Shown here one piece after another: positions 30,747-34,118 of a DNA stretch of 64,000 nucleotides. The stretch's first letter is position 1; the number at the start of each line of letters is the position of its first letter. Source of the stretch: Qipengyuania pelagi (GTDB taxonomy: Bacteria > Pseudomonadota > Alphaproteobacteria > Sphingomonadales > Sphingomonadaceae); assembly GCF_009827295.1 (NCBI RefSeq), contig NZ_WTYD01000002.1, positions 310,001 through 374,000 of the forward strand, in the 5' to 3' direction. The notes beneath the pieces are model-generated. The model saw only the letters and a list, made by a program, of their open reading frames with translations, did not search any database and was not told where the DNA came from. The translations under genes were made by a program, and so were the position numbers.

Positions 30747-32228
30747 ATGACCGACACCGTAGAAATACAGGACCAGGACGCCCGCGATGCGGCCGCGCGC
30801 GCCGCCGAGTATGAATTCGGCTGGCATTCGGACATCGACACCGAATTCGCGCCCAAGGGTCTCGACGAAGACACCGTCCGCTTCATCTCCGCCAAGAAGA
30901 AAGAGCCCGAATGGATGCTCGACTGGCGGCTGAAGGCTTTCCGCCTGTGGCAGGACATGGAAGAGCCCGACTGGGCGAAACTGGGCTATCCCGAGATCGA
31001 TTATCAGGACGCCTATTATTACGCCGAGCCCAAGGCCAAACCGAAGCTGGAATCGCTCGACGAGCTCGATCCCGACATCAAGGCGGTCTACGACAAATTG
31101 GGCATCCCGATCGCGGAGCAGGAAGTGCTCGCGGGCGTGGAAGGCGCGCGCAAGGTCGCGGTGGACGCCGTGTTCGACAGCGTCAGCGTCGCCACCACCT
31201 TCCGCGAGGAATTGAAGAAGGCGGGCGTCATCTTCCTCTCGATCAGCGAGGCGATTCGCGAATATCCCGAGCTGGTGAAAAAATGGCTCGGCAAGGTCGT
31301 GCCGCAGCGCGACAATTACTTCGCCACGCTCAACAGCGCGGTCTTTTCGGACGGCACCTTCGTCTACATCCCCGAAGGCGTGCGCTGCCCGATGGAGCTG
31401 TCGACCTATTTCCGCATCAATGCGGAAAATACCGGCCAGTTCGAACGCACGCTGATCGTGGCGGAGAAGGGTAGCTATGTCAGCTATTTGGAAGGCTGCA
31501 CCGCGCCGATGCGCGACGAGAACCAGCTGCACGCCGCCGTCGTCGAACTGGTCGCGATGGACGATGCCGAGATCAAGTATTCGACCGTCCAGAACTGGTA
31601 TCCCGGCAACAGCGAAGGCGTGGGCGGGATCTACAATTTCGTCACCAAGCGGGGCCTGTGCCAAGGCGCGCGGTCCAAGATCAGCTGGACCCAGGTCGAA
31701 ACCGGCTCCGCCGTCACCTGGAAATATCCCAGCTGCGTGCTCAATGGCGAGGACAGCGTGGGCGAATTCTACTCGGTCGCGGTGACGAACAATCACCAGC
31801 AGGCCGATACCGGCACCAAGATGATCCATAACGGGCGCGGTTCGCGTTCGACCATCATCTCCAAGGGGATTTCGGCGGGCAAGTCGAACAACACCTATCG
31901 CGGCCTGGTGCGCGTGGCCGCCAATGCCGACAATGTCCGCAACCGCACCGAATGCGATTCGCTGCTGCTCGGCGAGAAATGCGGCGCGCACACCGTGCCC
32001 TATATCGAGGTCAAGAACCCCAGCGCCCAGATCGAGCACGAGGCGACCACCTCGAAAATCTCGGACGACCAGCTGTTCTACGCCCAGCAACGCGGCTTGG
32101 GTGAGGAAGAGGCGATCGCGCTGATCGTCAACGGCTTCGCGAAAGAGGTGATGAAGCAGCTGCCGATGGAATTCGCGGTCGAAGCGCAGAAGCTGCTGGC
32201 GATCTCGCTCGAGGGGAGTGTGGGGTGA
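30747..32228 (+). CDS. sufB: Fe-S cluster assembly scaffold subunit SufB
   Basis: A 493-residue component of the SufBCD scaffold on which new Fe-S clusters are built. The beta-helix core is recognisable from [40 protein letters not shown] and [17 protein letters not shown] to [20 protein letters not shown], which includes conserved Cys residues near the C-terminus. ATG 30747 ([14 protein letters not shown]) is preferred to the upstream frame, which runs through the repeat. The next gene starts with GTG overlapping its stop. Confidence 0.95.
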
Positions 32229-33223
32229 GCGCTCTCGTCGATAAAGGGGCCGATCCGAAAACCCCTCCCCTTCAGGGGAGGGGCAAGGGGTGGGGGCTGT
32301 CATCCGAACAGCTCGCAACGCTGAAGGATCGTGCGCGCGAAATGCGCAGCAACCCGACCGAGCCGGAAAAGCGCTTGTGGCGTAATCTTTCCAACAGCCA
32401 GTTGAATGGTTTCAAGTTCCGGCGTCAGGAGGTCATCGGCCATGCCATCGTGGATTTCTATTGTCCGGCGGCAAAGCTCGTCGTCGAGGTCGATGGCGAT
32501 ACGCATGACGATCCCGAAAAGGATGCGCGCCGGGACGAGTATCTGGCTGAGATGGGCTTGGCCGTCCTTCACCTTTCCAATGACGACGTCATGAATAACT
32601 CGGATGGCGTTCTGCAAACGATGCTTGCCGCTCTCGACGTTGGTGACAGCCCCCACCCCAACCCCTCCCCTGAAGGGGAGGGGCTTGCGCAGCGTAAAAC
32701 CCTCCAGCTCCGCGATCCGTCGGAAACCGACGACACCGCCCCCGCGCTCAAAAAGAAGGGCCGTGGGTGGAAGATTTCGGACAAGCGGCTCGACGTTCTG
32801 CACGAACAGGCGCGCGAGTTGCGGCGCCATTCCTCCGAAGCGCACAAGGCGCTCGCCGAGAAGTTCGCCAAGGCGGATATGGGCCGCTACACCTTCAAGC
32901 GGTTCGCCGTGGTCGGCAGCGCGATCGTGGACTTCAACTGCCACAATCTCGGCATGGCGATCATGGTGGACGAGGAGGGCGCGGACGAAGCGCTGGCAAA
33001 ACGCCGTGACAAGAGCCTCGAGGCGGTCGGCATCCGCGTGATGCGAATCGCCGCCTCCGACATTCTGACGGACATCGAAAGCGTGCTCCAGCGCATCACG
33101 CTAGGCATGCGCAGCCGCATCGCCGACAAGAAAGAGGCCGCGCGCGCCCATGCCGCGGCCAATCCCAACCAGCATTATTCGCGGCCCAACAAGCGCCAGG
33201 AGCGCCCCGAGGGTCGGCGGTGA
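32225..33223 (+). CDS. tandem DUF559 (Vsr-like nuclease fold) protein inside the SUF operon
   Basis: A 332-residue protein between sufB and sufC. Its GTG start overlaps the sufB stop. Domain 1 (about residues 26-137) is a complete DUF559 domain with [16 protein letters not shown] and [12 protein letters not shown], keeping the Asp77, Glu88 and Asp90 expected of the PD-(D/E)XK/Vsr-like active site. Domain 2 (about residues 184-292) aligns with it ([16 protein letters not shown]) but reads [12 protein letters not shown] where ExDG is expected, so the catalytic Glu is lost. Domain 1 is flanked by palindrome-encoded peptides ([11 protein letters not shown] and [10 protein letters not shown]). Its role in Fe-S assembly is unknown. 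Confidence 0.85.
32262..32305 (+). repeat. left inverted repeat of a DUF559 cassette, G-quadruplex capable
   Basis: A perfect palindrome, CCCCTCCCC-TTCA-GGGGAGGGG (32262-32283), is followed by CAAGGGGTGGGGGCTGTCA. The G-run series at 32275-32296 (GGGG-A-GGGG-CAA-GGGG-T-GGGGG) meets the simple quadruplex rule. The same sequence returns in reverse orientation at 32643-32683. Confidence 0.85.
32643..32683 (-). repeat. right inverted repeat of a DUF559 cassette, G-quadruplex capable
   Basis: Read on the minus strand this matches the left copy over about 40 bp, with one substitution/indel cluster (CAA versus TT). It contains CCCCTCCCC-TGAA-GGGGAGGGG (32662-32683) and the C-runs of a minus-strand quadruplex motif (32650-32670). 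It encodes the [10 protein letters not shown] linker of the protein. Confidence 0.85.
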
Positions 33224-33246: not shown

Positions 33247-33333
33247 CGTCATTGCGAGCGGAGCGAAGCAATCCAGAGCGGTGCGCGATCCGCCCCTGGA
33301 TTGCCGCGTTGCCCGCGGCTCCTCGCAATGACG
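33247..33333. repeat. CATTGCGAGG-type palindromic repeat, copy 2 (inside the SUF operon)
   Basis: The 87 bp element starts CGTCATTGCGAGCGGAGC and ends GCTCCTCGCAATGACG, with internal AATCCAG/CTGGATT arms. It matches the ends and layout of copy 1 at 29775. It occupies most of the 130 bp between the DUF559 gene and sufC and could form a long hairpin in the operon mRNA. Confidence 0.75.
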
Positions 33334-33353: not shown

Positions 33354-34118
33354 ATGCTCGAAATCAAAGACCTCCACGCCGAAATCCCTGATGTGAACGG
33401 GGGCAAGCAAATCCTCAACGGCCTCTCGCTCACCGTGAATGCGGGCGAGGTTCATGCCATCATGGGCCCCAACGGCGCGGGCAAATCGACGCTCGCCTAT
33501 GTGCTGGGCGGTCGGCCCGGTTACGAAGTGACCGGCGGCAGCGTGAAATTCGCGGGCGAGGACCTGCTCGAAATGGACCCGCACGAGCGCGCGGCGGCTG
33601 GCCTTTTCCTCGGCTTCCAGTATCCGGTCGAGATCCCCGGCGTCTCCAACGTCCAGTTCCTGCGCGAGGCGTTGAACGCCCAGCGTCAGGCGCGCGAGGA
33701 AGAGCCGCTGACCGGCGGCGAATTCCTGAAACACGCCAAGGAACAGGCGGCGCTGCTCAAGCTCGATATGGACATGCTCAAGCGGCAGGTGAATGTCGGC
33801 TTTTCGGGCGGCGAGAAGAAGCGCGCCGAAATGGTGCAGATGGGCATCCTCGACCCGAAGCTGGCCGTGCTCGACGAGACCGATAGCGGGCTCGACATCG
33901 ATGCGCTGAAGACGGTCGGCAACGGCATCAACGCGATCATGCGCAAGCCCGACAAGGGCGTGCTGCTGATCACGCATTACCAGCGCCTGCTCGATTACGT
34001 GAAGCCGGATTTCGTCCACATCCTGTCGCAGGGGCGGATCGTGAAGACGGGCGAGGCGGACCTTGCGCAGCGGCTCGAGGCCGAAGGCTATGACGCGGTG
34101 ATGGCGGAGGTGGCGTGA
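33354..34118 (+). CDS. sufC: SUF system ATPase SufC
   Basis: A 254-residue ABC-type ATPase of the SufBCD scaffold. Motifs in order are Walker A GPNGAGKSTL (about residues 36-45), a Q-loop in GFQYPVEIPG, the signature NVGFSGGEKKRAEM, Walker B LAVLDETDSGLD and the switch His in LLITHYQRLL. ATG 33354 starts the standard MLEIKDLHAEI. The stop overlaps the GTG of sufD. Confidence 0.96.
   Translation: MLEIKDLHAEIPDVNGGKQILNGLSLTVNAGEVHAIMGPNGAGKSTLAYVLGGRPGYEVTGGSVKFAGEDLLEMDPHERAAAGLFLGFQYPVEIPGVSNVQFLREALNAQRQAREEEPLTGGEFLKHAKEQAALLKLDMDMLKRQVNVGFSGGEKKRAEMVQMGILDPKLAVLDETDSGLDIDALKTVGNGINAIMRKPDKGVLLITHYQRLLDYVKPDFVHILSQGRIVKTGEADLAQRLEAEGYDAVMAEVA

Follow-up and report, generated by a model that had tools for sequence, protein, structure and literature searches.

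A nuclease cassette between sufB and sufC

Why should a gene of the SUF operon encode two nuclease domains of the same family, with inverted palindromes around only the first? The question is raised by a 64,000-nucleotide stretch of the Qipengyuania pelagi genome (assembly GCF_009827295.1, contig NZ_WTYD01000002.1, positions 310,001 to 374,000 of the forward strand; hereafter the window), in which one open reading frame (ORF) of 332 amino acids (32225-33223, + strand, GTG start), flanked by sufB and sufC, encodes two DUF559 domains. Comparison with other genomes suggests that the first domain and its palindromes are probably a unit of repetitive extragenic palindromes (REPs) and nuclease: a DUF559 gene (Vsr/EDxHD-type PD-(D/E)XK) enclosed by its own cognate inverted triplex-type palindromes, which would work like the REP-associated tyrosine transposases (RAYTs) while being unrelated to them. 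The comparisons that point to this reading concern the architecture, its generality, cognate specificity, minimal doublets with the same ends, the covariation of hairpin and tail, and the absence of a RAYT.

The PF04480 profile matched the ORF at 32321-32635 (119.7 bits) and at 32801-33100 (56.5 bits). With a cut-off of 20.6 bits the first, intact domain (+ strand) belongs to the DUF559 family, a Vsr-like PD-(D/E)XK fold whose D...ExD...H residues were invariant in a 50-sequence alignment and are present here. Alignment of the active sites placed IMVDEEG of the second domain against VEVDGDTH of the first, so that the second has lost not only the catalytic Glu, as an earlier note on this DNA had remarked along with the two domains, but also the His. 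The inverted arms around the first domain were located at 32251-32295/32650-32694 and 32260-32302/32644-32686, which corrects their length from about 40 to about 45 bp each. They contain the palindromes CCCCTCCCCTTCAGGGGAGGGG (32262-32283) and CCCCTCCCCTGAAGGGGAGGGG (32662-32683), 400 bp apart from start to start, and the unit measured from hairpin to hairpin is 422 bp. Each palindrome consists of 22 bp with a G-rich inner tail, the arm reading CCCCTCCCC-loop-GGGGAGGGG and then GGGGTGGGG on the gene side. In the left hairpin (32262-32283, +) the loop is TTCA, giving CCCCTCCCC-TTCA-GGGGAGGGG, and the tail (32287-32295, +) lies in register as the third strand of a predicted intrastrand triplex; the right hairpin (32662-32683) and its tail (32651-32659, CCCCACCCC on the + strand) are on the - strand. 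With up to three mismatches allowed, the palindrome pattern occurred at these two sites only in the window and never in 100 dinucleotide shuffles.

Palindromes around DUF559 genes in other bacteria

In order to compare DUF559 loci, we aligned the two 350-bp flanks of the domain with each other in inverted orientation and took the best result as inverted-repeat (IR) score, a score of 16 or more counting as a pass; the same geometry was slid along the same locus as a control. Among 61 genomes (60 relatives and the window's own), 32 of 38 matches of at least 75 bits passed, compared to 3 of 1021 controls; two of 40 such matches were dropped at contig edges and 17 matches below 40 bits were left out of the counts. 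Only 1 of 36 SUF-linked resident genes reached the threshold (L089 and L091 excluded). When 120 Pseudomonadota genomes were sampled evenly, 40 of 56 matches of at least 75 bits, the window's own excluded, passed in 21 of 24 genomes (controls 7/763); at one locus of this sample, L343, the score was 8.0 with 0 of 14 controls passing. Genomes of the family chosen as lacking the A nuclease type yielded 17 passing loci among 30 fetched (controls 0/391). A cross-phylum set, the best 80 of 558 confirmed loci, mostly from Alpha- to Delta-proteobacteria with few other phyla, was reduced to 78 named loci by removal of L168 (contig edge) and L162 (N-run), and 60 of these passed (controls 3/1036). Loci of other phyla that passed within these best 80 came from Gastranaerophilales (38.0 and 27.5), Marinimicrobia (19.0) and WOR-3 (20.0).

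A general alliance between DUF559 genes and palindromes, with family-specific repeats, is well supported by these sequence comparisons. The earlier note had conjectured such a link by analogy with RAYT and REP, and both its unit of a Vsr-like nuclease with terminal palindromes and the pairing of repeats around DUF559 genes beyond expectation were borne out in several samples. In many other bacteria the relatives of this gene are likewise accompanied by matching repeats of their own, so that the enzyme appears to be the partner which a common class of short 'orphan' repeats has been lacking. That the palindromes should be just ordinary terminators, or inverted repeats that flank small genes by chance, has almost no probability. 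G+C-rich hairpins can indeed serve as terminators, but those of the window are not followed by a T-run, the sequences are family-specific, the palindromes stand on both sides of the gene with their tails inward, and two of the gene-free doublets described below lie within open frames. Pairs are in sharp excess around the family and not in shifted windows, of which 0-0.9% passed overall; it is on these control rates that ordinary terminator hairpins were rejected.

Matches were also found in 35 plasmid records, including a SUF-linked cassette on a Sphingomonas parapaucimobilis replicon, and in two phage records, and a scan of viral contigs found no relative. Five plasmid loci had IR scores of 26.0, 7.5, 17.0, 14.5 and 25.5. 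Two DUF559 loci on Picosynechococcus plasmids (L340 and L341; 17.0 and 14.5) have inverted repeats with a higher AT content, CCCCTAAATCCCC...TTTGGGG, which may represent a cyanobacterial form. In the cassettes L303 and L300 an additional palindromic insertion seems to interrupt one of the palindromes, and a B-type cassette in G005 (L050) is open in frame into an apparent trpA (400-aa open frame), at a site common to six genomes.

Correspondence between repeat type and nuclease

Several nuclease clades with different palindromes are present in the genus, and a single genome may carry several of them. One orthologous site is occupied in G027 by a D-type nuclease with D-type repeats. Its occupant in G025 is a different nuclease, 41% identical, whose repeats also differ and agree with those around a related nuclease at a separate site of G029. 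Over 124 elements (the genus being reduced to one per site or allele, and loci without a scored inverted repeat being excluded from all tests of repeat against protein), repeat similarity tracked protein identity (rho 0.32, 0/500 permutations), and in 24 of 35 cases repeats were closer to those of the nearest nuclease in another genome than to those of elements in the same genome (p 0.016). A broad Mantel test (n=65) was weak, with rho 0.13 and 1/500 permutations; a genus-only one (n=26, rho 0.54) is confounded by shared sites and was dropped as main evidence.

In the family we fetched and read 30 of 43 A-type matches and 30 of 62 matches in A-negative genomes. The A-type palindrome was found on both sides with at most 2 mismatches in 25 of the 30 A-type loci, and perfectly in 19, at nuclease identities of 50-71%, the window's own apart. 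By nuclease-only identity the two groups stay nearly apart, the negatives reaching at most 49% save G189 at 57%. A-type copies were present in 36 of 40 genomes with the A nuclease (out of 41) and in 7 of 40 without it (out of 356); at least 3 copies were found in 31 and 4 of them, respectively, with totals of 431 and 53 copies, and with one genome per genus the median p was 3e-7. REP number thus depends on the enzyme as in RAYT-REPIN systems (REPINs being the short inverted REP doublets), here as an association only. Altogether, the repeat type appears to follow the nuclease rather than the site or the host.

Copies of the palindrome in the window's genome

With up to 2 mismatches, the 3.03-Mb genome of Q. 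pelagi contains ten A-type palindromes, which make exactly five inverted pairs: one encloses the nuclease and four are REPIN-like doublets, 75-92 bp apart, with no gene inside. Two more matches of the same search were single copies of another palindrome, CCCCTCCCGCAAGCGGGAGGGG. One REPIN arm is identical to the right arm of the cassette at 44 of 46 positions, reaching the inner end. The genome thus has what characterizes RAYT-REPIN systems, inverted REP doublets about 70-120 bp apart and the same REPs beside an enzyme gene. The four A-type REPINs and one D-type doublet folded much more strongly than shuffles, with z from -5.8 to -8.2 and z -6.2, respectively; a search of Rfam gave no meaningful match, with one match below its cut-off.

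Two of the REPINs sit within long open frames, which we take to be those of valS and of the glycine-cleavage P protein. The first, of 113 bp (C1:1752049-1752161; L005 1501-1613), is in frame in a 937-aa open frame reading as valyl-tRNA synthetase, and the equivalent site in G023 is occupied by a different palindromic insertion. The second (C1:1791528-1791629; L012 1501-1602) is in an open frame reading as glycine cleavage P protein.

No Y1/HUH tyrosine transposase (PF01797, RAYT) was found in the window's genome, and the genus has one in 2 of 37 genomes and none in 35; a RAYT as mover was ruled out on this basis. The same count bears on the idea that the REPs are moved by some other enzyme and that DUF559 was simply caught between two of them. 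Orphan REPs do occur without a cognate nuclease, and other kinds of palindromic insertion use some of the same sites, but the REP type tracks the nuclease across sites and hosts and members of this one gene family are found bracketed in several phyla, which together with the 35 genomes lacking a Y1 transposase makes a passenger gene decidedly improbable.

Repeat structure and the intrastrand triplex motif

The 62 D-type copies comprise 13 that flank a nuclease, 32 that are paired in 16 doublets whose tails all point inward, and 17 that stand alone. Pairing of the inner hairpin is kept across 39 distinct D-type arms despite wide sequence variation, with a mean stem of 2.85 compared to 1.27 in recombined halves (0/5000 permutations). 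Under a triplex code (G on G-C, A or T on A-T), tails fitted their own stem at 0.726 and those of other arms at 0.575 (0/2000; hairpin and tail were scorable in 287 of 346 arms). The ends of the REPs, as read, are for the most part AAGCCCC...GGGGCTT-like or ATCCTCC...GGAGGAT.

A hairpin followed by a purine-rich third strand in register is what defines the PIT motif, and this is what the sequence contains, the triplex itself being predicted. The repeats match, at the level of sequence, the known 'intrastrand triplex' motif (TM_ECO, earlier PIT), likewise a hairpin of C-rich and G-rich arms with a G-rich tail, e.g. CCCTCTCCCTGTGGGAGAGGGCCGGGGTGAGGGC, of which inverted pairs are known. The motif is known from E. 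coli and more than 260 genomes and is described as stable in vitro, unsupported in vivo and tied to instability; no mobility gene is reported near the E. coli copies, whose origin is called unclear (PMC4666352). We propose DUF559 as the partner. In MG1655 the gene annotated as DUF559 is ycjD, and one of the 23 E. coli copies, intact, follows it at a distance of 167 bp downstream. We lean, by a modest degree, towards the broader proposal that the intrastrand-triplex (PIT) repeats form a third great class of bacterial REPs, of which DUF559 nucleases would be the missing mobilisers: a PD-(D/E)XK-only system, convergent with RAYT/REPIN and present in Pseudomonadota and several other phyla, whose enzyme would recognise hairpin-plus-third-strand DNA.

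Two side observations concern E. coli. In MG1655 1349000-1354000 (L337) the stretch 3' of ycjD resembles the C-terminus of a second DUF559 and is followed by the triplex motif, perhaps a decayed tandem copy. Our PF04480 control gave no match in E. coli despite the annotated ycjD in MG1655, which the control strain or a filter may explain.

A possible mechanism and its relation to known systems

On the reading of a nuclease allied with its own repeats, the enzyme would bind its REP in single-stranded or extruded DNA, as hairpin plus third strand, and nick or cut it; replication or repair would then copy the REP-bounded segment to new sites. For the most part, short REP doublets would spread in trans and the gene would seldom travel with them; it would itself mostly stay put and be inherited vertically, as described for the single-copy RAYTs (PMC8049555). 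In several genomes the nuclease gene has long remained at fixed sites, in which it resembles RAYTs.

The same retention, at identical sites across several species, would suit a Vsr-like repair enzyme that resolves replication-stalling REP hairpins or triplexes, the flanking REPs being its own regulatory or recognition sites and REPs spreading by replication slippage. Vsr and Hjc-like folds are among the structural matches, and Caulobacter VsrA, a DUF559 protein, is reported to trigger a DNA damage response when methylation is missing (PMC12907096), and the E. coli motif to be tied to instability (PMC4666352). By itself, a housekeeping role does not account for the full inverted pair around the gene in most loci, nor for REPINs with the same inner ends or tails that always point inward, and we consider it unlikely.

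Several observations weigh against a nuclease that mobilises its own repeats. No movement was observed, the evidence being comparative only. Scores fell below threshold in 16 of 56 loci of the Pseudomonadota sample, 18 of 78 of the cross-phylum set and 6 of 38 of the relatives, and these include one locus each from Elusimicrobiaceae (11.0), Spirochaetes (14.0) and Desulfobacteraceae (14.0). A strict rule gives no inner stem in 8 of 39 D-type arms, the folding of single arms only slightly exceeds that of shuffles (z -1.4 and -2.5), the permutations for stem covariation and triplex code ignore relatedness, and a stable triplex was not found in vivo in PMC4666352. The query that sorted genomes for the A-type comparison held REP-encoded peptides, a bias toward cassettes with such flanks, and of the 7 of 40 'negatives' with A-type copies one, G189, has an A-like cassette. 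Within the genus many elements sit at sites that were inherited in common (28 elements at 12 sites), and non-flanking REPs are only modestly linked to the cognate nuclease, with 5/7 vs 6/30 and 4/9 vs 2/28 (p 0.016 and 0.022, Fisher tests from hand counts with the broken D-type gene of G004 scored as absent). D-type doublets occur without a D nuclease in G008 and in the window's genome, where those at L196 and L197 are orphans, and the 17 single copies among the 62 add to them; repeats can outlive or arrive without their nuclease. The E. coli gene ycjD itself is not bracketed by motifs, so its proximity to one is a lead, not proof. REPIN sites with a comparable empty relative show no clear target duplication, which, with the small replacements seen there, fits repair-based insertion.

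Among known systems RAYT-REP/REPIN (REPtrons; GTAG REPs) is alike in its nuclease gene between inverted REPs, its short inverted doublets as replicating unit, the match of REP type to enzyme type, and a single-copy, vertically inherited enzyme (PMC3116915, PMC8049555 and PMC3733652). Unlike it, DUF559 has a Vsr-like PD-(D/E)XK fold and is not an HUH tyrosine transposase, its repeats, by reading, have a G-rich triplex tail and no GTAG tag at the REP foot, and the window's genome has no RAYT. REP dimers with a CGTC tag are common in Alphaproteobacteria without a known transposase (PMC3733652), whereas the cassette repeats are of other sequence and, by reading, carry no such tag. In contrast to the EDxHD homing endonuclease I-Bth0305I and to Vsr endonuclease, the cassette is REP-bounded, with no intron or intein seen and no cognate empty allele shown. 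To our knowledge there is no nuclease gene within the repeat pair of Rickettsia palindromic elements. Those elements are alike in being palindromic repeats inside genes (mentioned in PMC3733652). Judging from titles, the openings of abstracts and selected passages, we found no description of a DUF559-REP link in the literature searched, which left out most subscription papers and all preprints. If true, the link would give a function to a common family of 'unknown function', would mean that REP-nuclease alliances arose more than once, and would suggest that bacterial enzymes can use triplex-type DNA as substrate. Given a dedicated nuclease and its matched repeats, the question of the E. coli triplex motifs would become testable with one small protein and short oligonucleotides, and the SUF locus adds a visible, putative domestication series.

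History of the SUF locus

The earlier note had read the cassette as a mobile unit that landed, in frame, in a resident DUF559 gene. The cassette is absent from 35 of 36 same-genus SUF-type DUF559 ORFs, which have a single domain, the window's ORF being the only exception (37 genomes surveyed; G013 yielded no such ORF in the stretch read), and by our own count from the alignment the extra DNA relative to the uninterrupted gene start of relatives is net about 459 bp, a multiple of three. Ten same-genus SUF loci were aligned at the DNA level, and six line up with the sufB end. The picture of one landing was borne out only in part. Cassette followed by resident also occurs in another genus (G198, L289), and 18 of 30 fetched family loci, the window's included, are SUF-linked by a sufB or sufC match; some family cassettes elsewhere sit between two other genes, presumably yebC and ruvC. 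Because the SUF slot recurs in the family and in another genus, it is an old or recurrent slot, not a one-off landing, and the resident as an unrelated target struck once by chance was rejected.

Such a recurrent slot is also what a homing-type element would use, its nuclease cutting a specific empty allele and being copied in by break repair like free-standing homing nucleases, and the second-best structural match is the catalytic domain of the homing nuclease I-Bth0305I. Yet 12 sites are occupied within a single genus and several across the family, and homing leaves the REPIN doublets elsewhere unexplained; we regard it as highly improbable, and return to the REP-nuclease unit.

The closest cassette proteins are mostly stand-alone. 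REP-like peptides stand at both ends in 103 of the best 120 of 1354, as scored by a simple motif with a query that itself held such peptides, and several of the closest proteins end in a copy of the SufB tail. Because very similar starts head stand-alone cassette proteins, the start peptide of the ORF (32225-32260, +) looks like part of the cassette. After the right palindrome a second sufB 3' end is found at L279, L283 and L292 among the 30 family loci, and in G210 sufB is followed by the cassette, a second sufB tail, about 340 bp and then sufC. The SUF site may carry a duplication of about 50 bp, of which GCGCAG (32687-32692, +) may be a remnant, derived from the duplicated sufB 3' end. With its own cassette start, and with second sufB ends in relatives, the in-frame fusion is probably secondary, the join to the resident (32693-33223, +, without a start of its own) being a later deletion.

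The resident and other SUF-linked DUF559 proteins form a single clade (support 100/99), whose placement among A-type cassettes is weak. This clade exhibits a graded loss of the active site: L314 keeps VVEVDGDEH, with no bracketing repeats scored (IR 10.0), and others lose the motif stepwise, in what may be a domestication series. As it clusters with these proteins, we take the degenerate resident for a probable relative of the cassette, older and domesticated, and not for an unrelated target. At this locus an old copy would have decayed to the domesticated gene, and here an intact cassette would have become fused to it.

Neighbouring features

Upstream of the fused ORF, sufB (SufBD core) extends over 30747-32228 (+; its ORF is listed from 30639), and downstream sufC occupies 33354-34118 (+). 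The gap between the fused ORF and sufC contains another inverted pair, CGTCATTGCGAG...CTCGCAATGACG at 33247-33333, which by look is CGTC-type, a different known REP class, and lies outside the cassette.
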